Below, in pieces: positions 25,334-32,709 of a stretch of 35,567 nucleotides of DNA (position 1 is the stretch's first letter; every line of letters starts with the position of its first letter). The DNA comes from Microbacteriaceae bacterium (GTDB lineage: Bacteria > Actinomycetota > Actinomycetes > Actinomycetales > Microbacteriaceae), in NCBI GenBank assembly GCA_947454285.1, contig CANGJO010000002.1:1-35567 (forward strand), given 5' to 3'. The notes below the pieces were generated by a model. That model ran no database searches and had not been told where the DNA came from. It was given only the letters and a program-made list of their open reading frames with translations. A program made the translations under genes and the position numbers.

Positions 25334-27781
25334 TTATCCGTAGTAGGAGTAGGCAACAATGCCACGTTTAACTTTGTCAACCGCTGCCTTAGCGGTCTCG
25401 GCCAACTCCGGTCCGGCAGTCTGTGCCATTTGGTCCAGCACATCAATGATTTGTTTAGTCCAACGAATGAAGTCGCCGGCAAGTAGATCCGCACTATCCA
25501 GAACCGCGTCAAGTTTTGCGCCGGAGGCCCATCGGTGTATCGGAAGCGACAGGCTTAGATCTAGTGGCGCAGTTTGTCCAAGCTTGTGCGAGTGAGCAAG
25601 GTTTTCAAGATCGTCCCAAATTGCAACCGTGGTCTCCATGATTTCTTGGAAGTTTCCCTTAGGAATGCGTGGTTCCCACTCTTCTTCGCGTCTGGCTTCG
25701 TAAACCAATGCTGCTGCCATCGCGGCCAATCCGGCCGGGTCAAGCTTTGACCAAACGCCTTCACGAATACATTCTGAGATCAGCAGATCGCGTTCGCCAT
25801 AGATTCTGGCCAGGGTCTTGCCTGCTTCAAGAACTTCGTAGTCGCCATCAACTTCGTGAATGTAGTTCAGATCAACCAGCATTCCGCAAATCTTGTCGAA
25901 GGTCTTGGCAACCTGATTGGTGCGTCCTTCAATCTGCGCGATGATGCCATCAAGTTCGCGGCTCAGTTTGAACCAACGCTCTCCCCAGCGGGCGTGAGCT
26001 TCGCGCTCGTTGCAAGAGTGGCACGGGTGTGCACGCATATCGCGCTTTAGTTGGTTGAGCCTCTGTTCCTGCAGGTGCCTGCCTTTTGACTGACGCAAAT
26101 CCTTACCGCGTTCGGCACGCACTCGACCGGCAGAAAGCGCTCGCTCGATATCGGTCATCTCGCGACGCAAAGTTGCGTACTCAACGAAGTCACCCTGGTG
26201 ACACTCCATTGCTTTTTCATAACCATCCAGCGAAACCTGTTTTTCGCGAATTCCCTTGGCAAGTCCAACGACAGAGCGGTCTGCCTGGAACTGTGCGAAG
26301 GATGTTTCCAGAACTTCACGCGCGCGTTCACGACCAAATGCCTCAAGCAAGTTCACCGACATGTTGTAGGTGGGCTTGAACGGACTGATCAGTGGATAGG
26401 TGCGCTTGCTTGCCAGACCCGCAACGCTGTTTGGGTCCATGTTGGCGCTCCACTGAATCACCGAGTGACCTTGAGTGTCAATGCCGCGACGACCGGCACG
26501 ACCGGTTAGCTGGGTGTACTCCCCTGGCGTTAGGTTTACGCGGCCCTCGCCATTGAACTTGTCTAGGCGCTCGAGCACCACGGTTCGCGCCGGCATGTTG
26601 ATGCCAAGTGCCAAGGTTTCCGTGGCGAAGACAACCTTTACCAAACGACGCAAGAAAAGTTCCTCAACAACTTCCTTGAACGCTGGCAACATACCCGCGT
26701 GGTGAGCTGCTACGCCTCTTTCCAAACCAGACAGCCACTCAAAGTAACCAAGAGTAGAAAGGTCTTCGTTGGCAATGTTGTAGCACTTCTCTTCGACAAG
26801 TCGTCGAATCTCTTGCTTTTCTTCGGTTGTGGTCAAACGAATGTTGTGACTCTGGCAAGCCTTAACGGCCGCCTCGCAGCCGGCGCGCGAGAAGATAAAG
26901 AAGATAGCAGGCAGAAGATCTTCATCTTCCAGAATGTCAACGATCTCTGGTTTGGAAATTCGGTGAATCTGTTTCAGCTGCATGCGCTGATTGCCAAAAT
27001 CGCTTCGGCGACCGCGGTTTGGCTTATTGATTGGATTGCGCAGCTTGGTGGCGTGCATCTGCGCCAACTCTGGATTTACTCGCGGGTCCTTAGAGGCTTC
27101 GTCGAATAGTTCAAGAAGTTCGTCGTTGAACAAAACGTGCTGATTGAGCGGTACCGGGCGAATTTCGGAAACGATGATTTCCGTGTCGCCCCGCACTTCA
27201 TCTAACCAAGCACCAAATTCTTCTGCGTTTGAAACCGTTGCGCTTAGCGAGACGATTTTCACATCTTTAGGCAGGTGCAGAATTACTTCTTCCCACACAG
27301 CTCCACGGAAACGGTCGGCAAGGTAATGCACTTCATCCATCACCACGTAGCCCAGGCTGATTAGCGAATTTGAGTTCGCGTAGATCATGTTTCTGAGCAC
27401 CTCTGTGGTCATCACAACAATCTGGGCGTCTGAGTTCTGGTTGGTGTCACCGGTTAGTAGACCAACGCGTTCGGCGCCATAGCGTTTGGTTAGTTCGGCA
27501 AATTTCTGGTTACTAAGCGCCTTGATTGGCGTGGTGTAGAAAACCTTTTGATCTTTTTCAATAGCAAGGTGAATGGCAAATTCACCAACGATTGTTTTAC
27601 CAGCTCCAGTTGGCGCCGCAACTAGGACTCCCTTGCCTTTGGCAAGCGCGCGACAAGATTGCTCTTGAAAAGGATCCATTGGGAACTTGAGCAGCTTGGC
27701 AAAGTTCTCAATTGATGGATCGGGTTTATTGGCCTTTGCCTTGGCGAATCGTTCTGCTGGACTCAGCGACTCATCAGTCAT
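25334..27781 (-). CDS. DEAD/DEAH-box helicase, Ski2/Mtr4 (HelY)-like
   Basis: 'AAPTGAGKTIVGEFAIH', 'DEVHYLADR', 'SLSATVSN', 'QLTGRAGRRGIDTQGH'. ATG at 27781 (MTDESLSPAERF) overlaps the tatC end by 8 bp. Confidence 0.95.
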   Translation of the reverse strand: MTDESLSPAERFAKAKANKPDPSIENFAKLLKFPMDPFQEQSCRALAKGKGVLVAAPTGAGKTIVGEFAIHLAIEKDQKVFYTTPIKALSNQKFAELTKRYGAERVGLLTGDTNQNSDAQIVVMTTEVLRNMIYANSNSLISLGYVVMDEVHYLADRFRGAVWEEVILHLPKDVKIVSLSATVSNAEEFGAWLDEVRGDTEIIVSEIRPVPLNQHVLFNDELLELFDEASKDPRVNPELAQMHATKLRNPINKPNRGRRSDFGNQRMQLKQIHRISKPEIVDILEDEDLLPAIFFIFSRAGCEAAVKACQSHNIRLTTTEEKQEIRRLVEEKCYNIANEDLSTLGYFEWLSGLERGVAAHHAGMLPAFKEVVEELFLRRLVKVVFATETLALGINMPARTVVLERLDKFNGEGRVNLTPGEYTQLTGRAGRRGIDTQGHSVIQWSANMDPNSVAGLASKRTYPLISPFKPTYNMSVNLLEAFGRERAREVLETSFAQFQADRSVVGLAKGIREKQVSLDGYEKAMECHQGDFVEYATLRREMTDIERALSAGRVRAERGKDLRQSKGRHLQEQRLNQLKRDMRAHPCHSCNEREAHARWGERWFKLSRELDGIIAQIEGRTNQVAKTFDKICGMLVDLNYIHEVDGDYEVLEAGKTLARIYGERDLLISECIREGVWSKLDPAGLAAMAAALVYEARREEEWEPRIPKGNFQEIMETTVAIWDDLENLAHSHKLGQTAPLDLSLSLPIHRWASGAKLDAVLDSADLLAGDFIRWTKQIIDVLDQMAQTAGPELAETAKAAVDKVKRGIVAYSYYG

Positions 27782-28592
27782 TTTGCTCAACAGCAGACTC
27801 TGGTTCACCTAATGATTCATAGCTCGCAAACTCTTTAGCCAACCTGCGTGCTCTGCGCTTGTCATTGAAATAAGTAATTGCGGCAGCGATGAAATAAAGC
27901 GCAACAAGTGGAATCATCACCAGGAACATAGACATTGGGTCGGCGGTTGGGGTCGCCAGGGCGGCAATCACCGCAATCACGAACACCGCAAGGCGCCACG
28001 ACTTAAGAATGCTGCGAGCGGCAATTAAGTTGGCGAAGTTCAGCATCACGAGCACCACCGGCAACACAAATGCCAAACCAAAGACCAAAAGAATTCTGAT
28101 GGTGAAAAGAATGTATTCATTCGCATTGATAACGTTTGCGGTCCCAGCAGGTGTGAATCCGATCAGCGTTGATACGAAACCCGGAAGCGATACCCAGGCC
28201 AGCCAGCAACCTACAAAGAACAGTGGCAGTGCCGAGAACACGAAGCCTAGGGTGAATTTGCGTTCGCGCTTCTTTAGGCCCGGTGTCACAAAAGCCCAGA
28301 GGTTGTAGAGCCAGATTGGACTAGCCATCAAAACGCCAAGGAAGATAGAGACCTGAAGTTGCAGATCAAAAGCACCGGCAACAGTGCCAATGTTTAGGGT
28401 TGCGTTAATTCCTCGACTATTGGCCAAATCAACAACGGGTTTCTGCAAAATTTGGAATACCGGTTCAAACAGGAACCAGCCGGCAACTGTGCCGGCAAAA
28501 ATGAAAATGGCAGAAACAAAGAGTCTATTTCTTAGTTCTTTTAGGTGCCCACCCAGGCTCATCTTGCCGTCGGGGTTGCGTTTTTTTGCCAT
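27774..28592 (-). CDS. tatC: Sec-independent (Tat) translocase subunit TatC
   Basis: 'MSLGGHLKELRNRLFVS', 'KKRERKFTLGFVFSALPLFFVG', 'FGLAFVLPVVLVML', 'PTADPMSMFLVMIPL'; start MAKKRNPDGK at 28592. Confidence 0.96.
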   Translation of the reverse strand: MAKKRNPDGKMSLGGHLKELRNRLFVSAIFIFAGTVAGWFLFEPVFQILQKPVVDLANSRGINATLNIGTVAGAFDLQLQVSIFLGVLMASPIWLYNLWAFVTPGLKKRERKFTLGFVFSALPLFFVGCWLAWVSLPGFVSTLIGFTPAGTANVINANEYILFTIRILLVFGLAFVLPVVLVMLNFANLIAARSILKSWRLAVFVIAVIAALATPTADPMSMFLVMIPLVALYFIAAAITYFNDKRRARRLAKEFASYESLGEPESAVEQND

Positions 28593-28617
28593 GAGGAATA
28601 GCTGTGGCAGCAACTAA

Positions 28618-28791
28618 CTAGTTGCTTGAGCTGCCTTCGTCCTTCTTTGGCTTATCTTCTGACTTAATTTCGGTCTTGAAGATGCGCAGTGACTGCGCCA
28701 GGCTCTTGGCAAGTCCTGGAAGCTTTGGTCCACCCCATAGGAGCAAGACGATAACAAGAATGATGATCCATTCCCAACCGTTTAGTCGCAT
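28618..28791 (-). CDS. tatA: Tat translocase subunit TatA (57 aa; below the ORF-track length cutoff)
   Basis: Own translation: MRLNGWEWIIILVIVLLLWGGPKLPGLAKSLAQSLRIFKTEIKSEDKPKKDEGSSSN*: TM helix, hinge, amphipathic helix, charged tail; directly upstream of tatC. Confidence 0.95.
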   Translation of the reverse strand: MRLNGWEWIIILVIVLLLWGGPKLPGLAKSLAQSLRIFKTEIKSEDKPKKDEGSSSN

Positions 28792-29123
28792 CAGTGGAAC
28801 CTGCTTTCATTTGGGTTAAAACGCTTTAGAGACGATATAAGTCTACGCTGGCGCTGTTGCTGTTTCTTTACCTTGGACTTTTGTAACGCAATAAGTCTGG
28901 CTCTGGCAGCCGTTGGATCGGCCAAGATAGAGTCCTGAGGTCGCTCCAGACTTGGCTTGTTCTGCATTGCGTCGGCAAGAACCTGGGCCTTTTGCGCCAA
29001 TCGTTGCGCTTGGTGCCCGGCTGCGCCGAGCTTATTGAACAGCGACTTCCCGATGAATCCAAATACCACCAAAGCCAACACCGATAGGCCTACCCAAACC
29101 CAGAACCACGTCCAAAAACCCAT
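28791..29123 (-). CDS. Small single-TM membrane protein of unknown function between pafC and tatA
   Basis: 110 aa; N-terminal TM (WTWFWVWVGLSVLALVVFGFIG) then Q/A-rich basic tail; its TGA overlaps the tatA ATG by one nt (TGATG), and it follows the pafC stop by 2 nt. Confidence 0.8.
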   Translation of the reverse strand: MGFWTWFWVWVGLSVLALVVFGFIGKSLFNKLGAAGHQAQRLAQKAQVLADAMQNKPSLERPQDSILADPTAARARLIALQKSKVKKQQQRQRRLISSLKRFNPNESRFH

Positions 29124-29125
29124 TG

Positions 29126-30118
29126 CTAGTCCTCGTTTTCAATCTGGTCGGCGGTGTCTTCGCCTAGAGCTGCGAGTGCATAGTTCTTCACAATTGCACG
29201 CGCCTCTGCTGGCGCAATCACCTTGGCTGCACCACCGTAGCGGGAAACCAACTTGCCCAGATTAGGCAGGTGGCCAACCATGATCTCGGCGCGAACAGTG
29301 CTGGAATCCACGGTTACCGGTTCGGAAACCGTTTTGGACTCACTGATCAGGCGGTAGCCCTCTGGCTGCACCTCAACGGTTACCGCGGTATCGGTAGCAG
29401 AAGCCACGTAAAGCGCTTCTTCGAAATCTTCAATCTTTTTAGCTTCGGCGCTTAGCGGTTCATCCAAGACTTGAATGGCGCGCATGCGGTCCAACTTGAA
29501 GTTTCTTACCTCTTTATGTAGCGGACAGTAACCCCGCAAGTACCAACCGTCGGCACGAGGATCAAGTCGCAATGGTTCAATGCTTCGAACTGATCGCTCA
29601 CCCTTTTGGTTGATGTATTCGCAACTAATTTGGTTGCCTGAAATCATGGCTCTACGAATTACCTCTGCCCCGGCCTCGGCACTGCCTGGTCGTGACTCAA
29701 TCAATGGGTTGATTCCGCGACTTCCACCTGCAGCCAGCAGCTCTTGCAACTTTTGCAGATCGGCATCGTCACTGAAGCCAGGAATCGTGGCTAAGTAATT
29801 CAAGCCAGCAGCAATTGCTGAGGCCTGACGCGTTGAAAGTCTAGGCACGTCGTCAATCACCTGATTAGAGATCAGAGACAAGACGCCTTCGTCTTCAAGT
29901 GCCTCAATATCGATAAAGAAGAACCACTCTTCGAATTCGTTTACGGTGGCTCGAGCCTCGTTGATCGAGGTGACTGCTTTGCGGATGTACTTAGCATCAA
30001 GTCCAAAATGCTCTGCCGCCTCATCAACTGAGACCGAACCGCGATTCTGTAAGTAGGCCACCAGGGCAAGCATGAAGTTGTAGCGATCTTCGCCGTTAAA
30101 GGAATTGAGTTTAGGCAT
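29126..30118 (-). CDS. pafC: WYL domain transcriptional regulator, PafC-like
   Basis: HTH-like N-terminus, WYL domain ('DGWYLRGYCPLHKEVRNFKLDRM'); position beside a second WYL gene and tatAC. Confidence 0.9.
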   Translation of the reverse strand: MPKLNSFNGEDRYNFMLALVAYLQNRGSVSVDEAAEHFGLDAKYIRKAVTSINEARATVNEFEEWFFFIDIEALEDEGVLSLISNQVIDDVPRLSTRQASAIAAGLNYLATIPGFSDDADLQKLQELLAAGGSRGINPLIESRPGSAEAGAEVIRRAMISGNQISCEYINQKGERSVRSIEPLRLDPRADGWYLRGYCPLHKEVRNFKLDRMRAIQVLDEPLSAEAKKIEDFEEALYVASATDTAVTVEVQPEGYRLISESKTVSEPVTVDSSTVRAEIMVGHLPNLGKLVSRYGGAAKVIAPAEARAIVKNYALAALGEDTADQIENED

Positions 30119-31121
30119 GAGCGGATGCCACCTTCTCGAAACCGCTGCGAATCAGGTCGTTAAGTTCACGAGGTCGGACAACCTTGATGTCCAAAGCAAA
30201 GTCACGAAGTTCCTCGGCAAGCAACACTAGGTCCATGTAATTGAAGGTGACGGTATCGCTTTTGGTGCCAGCCCCGTCATCGAGGTGAAAGTGGAACCAG
30301 GCTTGAGAATCTTGCTTAACTTTTAGTTCACAGACTTGATTAGCGATGTGCTCTTGAAGCTGGGTTACGGCCTGACCAAGTTTTTCATCAGATGGTTTAG
30401 TAAACCGTGATTCAACCTCATTCACCTTCACAGTCTGAACTTTGGAAACAATCCTGCGAAGCAAGAAGTTGCGCACTTCCCCTTGCTCTAGATCAAAGCT
30501 TTGTAGAAGCCATTGTCCATCAACATTGTGTAGTGACCACGGTTGAACGTGGCGCTTTGAAACCTCACCATTTGGCTTGCGATAGTTGAAAGTAACTTCA
30601 ACGCAATCTTGGATTGCCTCATTCAAAGGAATGAATGCAGGTTCACGGGTTTCAATGCGCGGAGCGAATCCAATCAAATCACTTGCTGCTGGTTCAACAC
30701 CAAGCGCCTTTAGTCGCACCAGGGCCTGGTTTGCATCGGCCTCAAGGGAAGCCTGAGACCAAACCTGTGCCGCGAGTTCCAACAACTGAAGTTGCTTTGC
30801 AGTTAGCTCAGTGTGTTGCGGCCAAACGAAAGTATCTTCGGCAATGACATAGACAATGTCATCCGAGTCTGCGTTGGCGTTTGGTGTGAATACCTGGATG
30901 CCGGTATTTTTCAGATCAACTTTGTCGCGTTCGAACATGCGGTTGAGTGATTCTTCACTGGTGCCGCCGCGAATTGCTTCAATGTAGGCCGGAATAGATT
31001 TGAAAAGTTCGGCCTTGGATAATCCGCGTTCCGAGAAAAGCAGGGCGCAGGTCAGCTGTAACAGTCGTTCCGATTTATCGGACTTTGAAGGCTGCCACGC
31101 CTCAGCTGACTTTGCGCTCAT
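30111..31121 (-). CDS. pafB: WYL domain transcriptional regulator, PafB-like
   Basis: 'KSERLLQLTCALLFSERGLSKAELFKSIPAY...RMFERDKVDLKNTGI' and 'DGQWLLQSFDLEQGEVRNFLLRRI'; SD 'GGGGGAG' upstream; 8-bp overlap with pafC. Confidence 0.9.
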   Translation of the reverse strand: MSAKSAEAWQPSKSDKSERLLQLTCALLFSERGLSKAELFKSIPAYIEAIRGGTSEESLNRMFERDKVDLKNTGIQVFTPNANADSDDIVYVIAEDTFVWPQHTELTAKQLQLLELAAQVWSQASLEADANQALVRLKALGVEPAASDLIGFAPRIETREPAFIPLNEAIQDCVEVTFNYRKPNGEVSKRHVQPWSLHNVDGQWLLQSFDLEQGEVRNFLLRRIVSKVQTVKVNEVESRFTKPSDEKLGQAVTQLQEHIANQVCELKVKQDSQAWFHFHLDDGAGTKSDTVTFNYMDLVLLAEELRDFALDIKVVRPRELNDLIRSGFEKVASAHA

Positions 31122-31141
31122 GTCTCCCCCGAGGTTGATCG

Positions 31142-31717
31142 CTATTGAGCCGGGTTAGCGGCTGCCAAGATATCAACCACGAAGATCAAGGTTGAGTTTG
31201 GCGGAATAGTTCCGGCGCCCTGTTCGCCATAGCCGTCTGCTGGAGGAAGAATTGCGATGACCTGAGAACCCACGGTCTGTCCGGCGATTGCCTTGGTAAA
31301 GCCCGGTACAACCTGCTCAAGTGAGAACTGCGCTGGCTGTCCGCTGGTCCAGGATGAGTCAAAAGGTGTGCCGTCCCACAACCAACCTGAGTAGTGAACG
31401 GTCACGACATCGGTAGAGCCAACAACTGCTCCGGCACCCTTGATCAAAGTAGAAACACCAAACTCCTTTGGCGCTTCGCCTTTCACTGCGGTGATTGAAG
31501 GTGCGCCATTAGAGTCAAGCGTCACTGCTGGGTATCCAGCCTTTGCTGTCTGTGCTTCTCCGGTTGCTCTAGTCATGGTTGAAAGCGTATCGGGTGCAGC
31601 TAGCTTCTGGTCTGCTGCTGGCTGCGATGCGCAGGCTGCAAGTGAGAATGCCAACGCGGCCGCGGTGATGATGGTGATTGCTTTACGCACAGGTAGTCCT
31701 TTGTTTGATTGCTTCAT
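31142..31717 (-). CDS. FKBP-type peptidyl-prolyl cis-trans isomerase, lipoprotein
   Basis: Lipobox 'LAAC'; FKBP motif 'VTVHYSGWLWDGTPFDSSW...FSLEQVVPGFTKAIAGQTVGSQVIAILPPADGYGEQG'. Confidence 0.95.
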   Translation of the reverse strand: MKQSNKGLPVRKAITIITAAALAFSLAACASQPAADQKLAAPDTLSTMTRATGEAQTAKAGYPAVTLDSNGAPSITAVKGEAPKEFGVSTLIKGAGAVVGSTDVVTVHYSGWLWDGTPFDSSWTSGQPAQFSLEQVVPGFTKAIAGQTVGSQVIAILPPADGYGEQGAGTIPPNSTLIFVVDILAAANPAQ

Positions 31718-32709
31718 TATTCTTGTTCAATTCTTGCTTCAGCAGCTGCTTCTGCGCTGCGAATGGTCTTGCGAAGTTTCTTGTCAGATACTTTGCGCTC
31801 TCCCATGTGTTCCGGGTTCCACGCCGACAAATCCTCGTCGCTAAATTCCGGCTTGTTCTTTGTCTTAAAGTTCGGAGCTTCCGAACCAGGCGCCATGCGT
31901 CGAGCAGTTATTAGAAATCCGGTGTGACCAATCATGCGATGCTCTGGTCTAACTGCTAGGCCCTGTAGGTGCCAACCACGAGTCATAGATTCAAACGCTT
32001 CTGGTTCGTTGAAGTGCCCGCTTGCCTTCAGTGCCTCGGCGAATCTAGACAACTGTGTCACGGTAGCCACATAGCCAACGATCAAACCACCTGGAACAAG
32101 TGCAATTGCGCATTCTTCAACGCATTCCCAAGGCGCTAGCATGTCTAGAACAATTCGGTCAACTGTGCCAGGTTGCTTCTTAATCGGAAGCTGTTCCTGC
32201 AAGTCACCGATATGAATGTTCCAACTATCAGGAACGATGCCTAGGTTGGTTGCCACATTGGCTTTGGCGATATCGGCAAATTCTTCGCGTCGTTCAAATG
32301 AATCAAGCGTGCCATGATCACCGATTGCGCGAAGCAAGTACATGCTTAGTCCACCGGAACCCACACCAGCTTCAACTACGCGAGCACCAGGAAAAATGTC
32401 ACCCATCACAACAATTTGTGCAGAATCTTTTGGATAGATGATCGCCGCACCGCGTGGCATCGACAAAACAAAGTCACTAAGCAACGGGCGGAAGGCAAGG
32501 TATTCGATTCCGGTTTGGTTCAAAATCACCGAACCCTCTGGCTTGCCGATGATGTCATCGTGCAGCAGATCGCCGCGGTGCGTGCCAAACTTGTCGCCAG
32601 CGCGCAAGGTGATGGTGTTTAGTCTTCCCTTTGGCCCGGTCAGCTGAACGCGATCGCCTTCGCGGAACGGCCCGGTGGGCAGCTTGGCCTTTGAAATTGG
32701 CTGGTTCAT
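31717..32709 (-). CDS. trmI: tRNA (adenine-N1)-methyltransferase, TrmI family (m1A58)
   Basis: 'FREGDRVQLTGPKGR', 'AQIVVMGDIFPGARVVEAGVGSGGLSMYLLRAIG', 'DRIVLDMLAPWE'; 1-nt stop/start overlap (TAATG) with the FKBP gene. Confidence 0.94.
   Translation of the reverse strand: MNQPISKAKLPTGPFREGDRVQLTGPKGRLNTITLRAGDKFGTHRGDLLHDDIIGKPEGSVILNQTGIEYLAFRPLLSDFVLSMPRGAAIIYPKDSAQIVVMGDIFPGARVVEAGVGSGGLSMYLLRAIGDHGTLDSFERREEFADIAKANVATNLGIVPDSWNIHIGDLQEQLPIKKQPGTVDRIVLDMLAPWECVEECAIALVPGGLIVGYVATVTQLSRFAEALKASGHFNEPEAFESMTRGWHLQGLAVRPEHRMIGHTGFLITARRMAPGSEAPNFKTKNKPEFSDEDLSAWNPEHMGERKVSDKKLRKTIRSAEAAAEARIEQE

Follow-up and report, generated by a model that had tools for sequence, protein, structure and literature searches.

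A pafBC locus without pupylation genes

Here, we describe a locus of a Microbacteriaceae bacterium that encodes both halves of the regulator PafBC and lacks the genes of pupylation, the tagging system that adjoins pafBC in other actinobacteria. The locus lies in a window of 35,567 nucleotides, the whole stretch of DNA that was analyzed (contig CANGJO010000002.1, assembly GCA_947454285.1). The window's genome is metagenome-assembled, with a total of 1.05 Mb on 126 contigs and a completeness of 76%. Open reading frames (ORFs) and Pfam matches give the order trmI-FKBP-pafB-pafC-(110-aa ORF)-tatA-tatC-helY on the minus strand, at positions 25334-32709:

31717-32709, minus strand: trmI, tRNA m1A58 methyltransferase, the upstream flank of the missing block (Pfam TrmI-like_N 4e-25, GCD14 4e-21)
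31717, no strand: empty site, a 1-bp overlap of the trmI stop with the FKBP start, at the position of the block in Arthrobacter
31142-31717, minus strand: FKBP-type peptidyl-prolyl isomerase, 191 aa (Pfam FKBP_C 1e-23)
30111-31121, minus strand: pafB, with winged helix-turn-helix (wHTH), WYL and WCX domains and an intact HTH-B recognition helix, RMFERDK (Pfam WYL 2e-12; PDB 6sj9 E = 4e-30)
29126-30118, minus strand: pafC, with HTH_PafC, WYL and WCX domains (Pfam HTH_PafC 8e-17, WYL 4e-17; PDB 6sj9 E = 4e-26)
28791-29123, minus strand: ORF of 110 aa with a hydrophobic N-terminal segment and no Pfam or NCBIfam match
28618-28791, minus strand: tatA (Pfam TatA_B_E 1e-14)
27774-28613, minus strand: tatC (Pfam TatC 2e-57; TIGR00945 above cut-off)
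25334-27808, minus strand: helY-type DEAD/DSHCT helicase (Pfam DSHCT 2e-39, DEAD 5e-29)

The gaps between these genes range from -35 to +20 bp (trmI/FKBP, -1; FKBP/pafB, +20; pafB/pafC, -8; pafC/110-aa ORF, +2; 110-aa ORF/tatA, -1; tatA/tatC, +4; tatC/helY, -35) and thus leave no space for pupylation genes. An earlier reading of these letters by themselves (the sequence-only reading) had described this order and tight spacing, with no room for pup, dop, mpa or pafA, and our analysis agrees with it on every named gene. The genes mpa/arc and prcBA, for which the search covered the locus alone, were not found there. As in PafBC, pafB adjoins pafC and both products have the wHTH-WYL-WCX arrangement. 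In Pfam, the WCX domain of PafB scores weakly (21 bits for a cut-off of 23.9), and the best Foldseek matches of this protein are 9fnd and 6sj9. PafC retains the tyrosine of its WYL domain and both residues of the loop pair (K208/R211), and has basic residues at R195 and H201.

An ancestral loss, by parsimony

The position of the missing genes can be read from relatives. In Arthrobacter subterraneus, the interval from trmI to FKBP holds arc (encoding AAA and proteasomal ATPase OB domains), dop, pup, prcB, prcA and pafA; in other families, a stretch of 6-9 kb with pup occupies the same trmI-side site. The sequence-only reading had placed the Pup genes of many actinobacteria between trmI and pafBC; in Arthrobacter they lie on the trmI side of FKBP. 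The sequence-only reading had proposed comparing the locus with relatives, searching the genome for Pup and PafA/Dop and looking for RecA-NDp promoter motifs. The first of these gave an equally empty arrangement in Microbacteriaceae: the block-free gene order is common to 12 regions of the family, large-genome relatives included, and the eight trmI-FKBP intervals read directly among them hold no remnant of the block. The family sampled here is identified as Microbacteriaceae because its rows in the PafBC tree group with three loci named as such (L071, L073 and L079), two of which, L071 and L073, are placed likewise in the TrmI tree.

The genome search found neither Pup nor PF03136, the Pfam family of the Pup ligase and depupylase, anywhere in the window's incomplete genome. 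Nor was PF03136 found in four genomes of the genus that are assembled as one contig each (G010, G092, G154, G205). The pattern extends to the whole family: PF03136 is missing from all of 400 Microbacteriaceae genomes, which represent 85 genera and are in many cases of 3-4 Mb, and 351 of these genomes are at least 90% complete. Pup itself was above the cut-off in none of 150 genomes of the family. A match in G065 (22 bits, below the cut-off, within a frame of 277 aa) was taken as chance. PF03136 is present in 268 of 297 genomes of the order, where the negatives (shown, or deduced from unlisted genomes) are Microbacteriaceae and six genomes of a family here called f4. It is present in 251 of 297 genomes of the class; the negatives among those listed are Microbacteriaceae, the group f44 and one genome that is 72% complete, and there are 26 further negatives, five of them confirmed as f44. 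Because of this distribution in family, order and class, we conclude from gene content that the loss of pupylation is family-wide and, by parsimony, ancestral to Microbacteriaceae. PafBC would thus stand here without an adjoining tagging system because the whole family lost that system long ago. In the open-access literature we found no paper joining Microbacteriaceae with pupylation, PafBC with Leifsonia, or Pup, PafA or Dop with Microbacterium, and on proteasome, Pup and Microbacteriaceae together just one natural-products review; an earlier mention in subscription papers is possible.

PafBC is retained with putative target promoters

HTH_PafC was found in 117 of 120 Microbacteriaceae genomes. 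PafBC has thus been kept, as the sequence-only reading held, and apparently as a working activator. G015 (0.9 Mb, 98% complete) and G081 (78% complete) gave no match to PafB, which suggests that PafBC, too, has been lost from some of the smallest genomes of the family. PafB and PafC are fused in proteins of 702-714 aa in G005 and G088 (loci L190 and L199).

The motif TGTCRGTG-N8-TAnnnT, which we take to be the mycobacterial consensus of the RecA-NDp type, has 643 matches in a sample of 79 family genomes, compared with 34 for the control (the reversed pattern). This is a 19-fold excess, and the count exceeds the control in 77 of the 79 genomes. The genes directly downstream of sampled matches include recA, recQ, ligA (NAD-dependent ligase), sbcD, ogt (O6-methylguanine methyltransferase) and a gene for a UvrD-type helicase; downstream of other sampled matches, no repair gene is evident. 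The window's own genome has no match to the exact motif. It has a 10/11 version, TGTCGGGGTATACCCGTATTCT, opposite lexA on contig C71 (L097:26-47), which points away from lexA and adjoins the SOS-box-like CGAACAACTGTTCG. Near lexA, 11 of 12 loci of the genus have a match of 10-11 out of 11 (13 matches in total, versus 1 in the control). Of 17 genus loci examined at recA, 8 have an upstream match of 10-11 out of 11 at a similar distance, and some are at background. The gene faced by the lexA-side motif encodes a short protein in G092; behind the motif in G205 (L135) lies a short protein resembling it, with a LysM domain.

LexA was found in 57 of 60 genomes of the genus. We considered that LexA could have been lost and replaced by PafBC, and rejected this because LexA is kept. 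Damage control looks dual, as in mycobacteria, with PafBC as what appears to be a working stand-alone damage activator beside LexA.

The ligand site of PafB has changed

We compared PafB of 45-47 family loci with that of Pup-bearing loci over 310 columns, with Mycobacterium smegmatis numbering read off the alignment. The positions that matter lie in a short part of the window:

30453-30509, minus strand: stretch of the pafB WYL ligand-site codons (numbering from the alignment; mutational data in PMC11804915)
30507-30509, minus strand: codon of L205, equivalent to M. smegmatis Y196
30483-30485, minus strand: codon of Q213, equivalent to R204
30462-30464, minus strand: codon of L220, equivalent to R211
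30453-30455, minus strand: codon of R223, equivalent to R214, kept

The two most divergent columns are the equivalents of R211 and Y196, and that of R204 ranks fourth. At R211, family rows have Leu (45) or Val (2 of 47), and all 22 readable Pup-bearing rows and all 5 rows from loci resembling those of Nanopelagicaceae have Arg. Leu is likewise found in the further family members L182, L183, L188 and L190. At Y196, 45 of the 47 family rows have His, Leu or Met, and the 22 Pup-bearing and 5 Nanopelagicaceae-like rows all have Tyr. The R204 equivalent is Arg in 22/22 Pup-bearing rows and mostly Ala, Thr, Val or Gln in the family. Other parts of the protein have been preserved: the R214 equivalent is kept in 47/47 family rows, and the F, R, D and K of the HTH-B recognition helix in the 45 unique family and 23 Pup-bearing rows.

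According to the M. smegmatis study (PMC11804915), the PafB variants R211A/R214A and Y196A abolish the binding of single-stranded DNA (ssDNA); R204 was tested within a triple variant, which also lost binding, and a PafC arginine variant bound as the wild type. Of the four PafB residues Y196, R204, R211 and R214, the first three are thus replaced in all or most family rows, which lowers the case for sensing of the M. smegmatis kind and not that for PafBC orthology. The alignment suggests that the ssDNA-binding tunnel of Microbacteriaceae PafB has been rebuilt, in which case ligand capture must differ from that of mycobacteria. An AlphaFold model of PafB from 7 aligned sequences (predicted local distance difference test, pLDDT, 71.8; predicted template modeling score, pTM, 0.49) supports the fold of the WYL domain and not its side-chain detail; that of PafC was poorer (pLDDT 64.5) and was not used. 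Loss of Pup as a general cause of the change in PafB was considered and rejected, since the Nanopelagicaceae-like PafB keeps the arginine and the tyrosine.

If ssDNA capture by PafB has departed from the mycobacterial mode, which half senses damage? The WYL tyrosine of PafC is present in 47/47 family rows and the loop pair is mostly kept. In addition, 41 of 45 family rows have Arg after the WYL motif, where Pup-bearing rows are mostly acidic or Gln, and 36 of 45 have Arg in the next loop, where Pup-bearing rows have mostly Ala. The likeliest remaining sensor would be the WYL domain of PafC, with its tyrosine and its arginine/lysine pair. We tentatively propose, at somewhat short of even odds, that sensing was re-partitioned in Microbacteriaceae: PafB would have given up the mycobacterial mode of ssDNA capture, and the WYL domain of PafC (or a different ligand) would have taken its place.

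Other lineages wholly or partly without Pup ligase

On contigs of sufficient length, the loci that resemble those of Nanopelagicaceae (L080-L085) have the order trmI-pafB-pafC-tatA-tatC-helY; both the block and FKBP are missing. PF03136 was not found in five of the genomes behind these loci, nor in eight f44 genomes. Two of the records (L081 and L085) are titled Bifidobacterium breve; their TrmI groups with a Nanopelagicaceae record, and they are probably mislabelled assemblies.

The family f4, probably Bifidobacteriaceae, has small genomes, six without PF03136 and others, e.g., G419 and G464, with it. In all its genomes but one, the best matches to the PafB profile fall in a PafBC-like fusion protein of 580-680 aa, which is divergent. 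The PafB half of this protein has an HTH (FQRDR) followed by a WCX-like stretch (L191-L194, L196-L198), with no detectable PafB WYL domain; the PafC half keeps the HTH, a weak WYL and the WCX. This suggests that the WYL domain of PafB is dispensable, which parallels the re-partitioning towards PafC proposed above. The fused protein occurs with and without Pup, so its WYL-less PafB half is not tied to pupylation.

The genes around pafBC in the window differ in their spread. Its TrmI is 93% identical to that of Rhodoluna sp. Ww21, and by the named relatives of this protein the window groups with Rhodoluna. The ORF of 110 aa has tblastn matches solely in L051, L052 and L071-L073, i.e., in the genus and near relatives. 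The FKBP has 191 aa in the window, 219 aa in the genus genome G010 and 310-330 aa in most other sampled members of the family, which suggests that the window's protein has lost an N-terminal part.

Weighing the explanations

We propose that arc/mpa, dop, pup, prcBA and pafA were removed from between trmI and FKBP by a clean deletion in the ancestor of Microbacteriaceae, and that PafBC was kept, to activate the promoters of DNA-repair genes on its own. Judging from its mycobacterial homologue, it would be activated by short ssDNA from damaged DNA and would then join sigma-A RNA polymerase at promoters of the TGTCRGTG-N8-TAnnnT type, where the HTH of PafB would read the -26 element and the HTH of PafC would hold sigma domain 4. 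It would work alongside LexA, not in LexA's place. That PafBC responds to damage in this family is what we infer from its kept DNA-reading residues and motifs. For the whole of this proposal (ancestral deletion, stand-alone PafBC and rebuilt PafB tunnel), we estimate a probability of about 0.85.

Several results weigh against it. Across whole genomes, the window's genus shows no enrichment of the exact motif (0-2 matches per genome, versus 0-3 in the control), so that the PafBC regulon may be very small there, and a search of the window's incomplete assembly did not turn up recA. The change in PafB happened once, at the level of the clade, and counts as one evolutionary datum regardless of the number of genomes that carry it. 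Of the 32 PafB columns that Pup-bearing rows conserve, those with functional residues are over-represented in the changed set to no more than a suggestive degree (P = 0.057); a rank-based test of the same enrichment gave P = 1.6e-5 and was picked after inspection of the data. Two results on PafC, together with the suggestive level of this enrichment, speak against a straightforward transfer of sensing between the halves: whole-domain net charge has not shifted from PafB to PafC (PafC P = 0.86), and the equivalents of the PafC tunnel aromatics W250 and Y254, as inferred from the alignment, have also changed.

The same changes could result from relaxed selection, with PafBC decaying or re-purposed and the altered PafB marking the loss of damage sensing. 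In midpoint-rooted trees, the stem leading to the family PafBC is long (about 0.86 changes per column), unlike the short branches of the neighbouring TrmI. Three ssDNA-contact residues and two tunnel aromatics have been replaced, and G015 and G081 lack a PafB match. However, the replacement of R211 is uniform, unlike the scatter expected of decay, the DNA-reading residues and the promoter motif have been kept family-wide, and so has the PafC tyrosine. We regard relaxed selection as unlikely. Still less likely is a replacement of the original genes at the locus by a paralogous or xenologous PafBC. In the tree, the family PafBC does branch outside every other actinobacterial PafBC sampled, but the root is a midpoint only, fast evolution can account for the long branch, and the gene order and neighbours (FKBP upstream, tatAC-helY downstream) are equal across the family regions.

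The remaining alternatives concern the loss itself, and both are highly improbable. The sequence-only reading had considered the block lost or moved in this lineage, and of this only the loss stands. The same reading had named the absence of the block from every larger-genome Microbacteriaceae as grounds for rejecting a loss in this lineage, and the sampled large genomes show just that absence. Relocation elsewhere in the genome, which the gaps of a 76%-complete assembly could hide, is contradicted by the PF03136-negative single-contig genomes of the genus, by the family at large and by the Pup search. A loss solely in the small-genome freshwater lineage through genome reduction would suit genus genomes of about 1.2-1.4 Mb and a tightly packed locus, but is refuted because complete genomes of 3-4 Mb also lack PF03136 and the loci of large-genome relatives are equally empty; the loss is unrelated to genome reduction in the window's lineage.

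Comparison with known systems

The Pup ligase was not found in any genome checked of one large family and of a second freshwater lineage, and is missing from a third family in part. Bacteria that keep PafBC without Pup are natural tests of how PafBC works without proteasomal clean-up of its regulon. Furthermore, the rebuilt PafB site leads to a testable prediction on which half of the heterodimer senses damage, a role of PafB in mycobacteria.

The Microbacteriaceae system resembles that of M. smegmatis (PDB 9fnd; PMC11804915) in having two genes, the wHTH-WYL-WCX arrangement, the recognition helix of HTH-B and a non-palindromic type of promoter motif before recA and repair genes. It differs in lacking Pup and PafA/Dop, the PafB equivalents of R211, Y196 and R204, and the PafC equivalents of W250 and Y254. 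The closest solved structure by sequence is PafBC of Arthrobacter aurescens (PDB 6sj9; PMC6789036). Arthrobacter relatives have FKBP upstream of pafBC, as in the window; unlike the window, A. aurescens has PafB and PafC fused, and an Arthrobacter relative has arc-dop-pup-prcBA-pafA at the locus. A partial loss at this same locus is known from Corynebacterium and Micrococcus, whose pupylation loci lack the 20S proteasome (PMC8223512). These genera keep pupylation and lose the proteasome subunit genes only, whereas in Microbacteriaceae pup and pafA/dop are gone too. Finally, DriD of Caulobacter crescentus is a structural match to PafB and, like it, a WYL protein, which activates recA in response to ssDNA. 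DriD acts at a different type of promoter and forms a homodimer, in contrast to the PafB/PafC pair.

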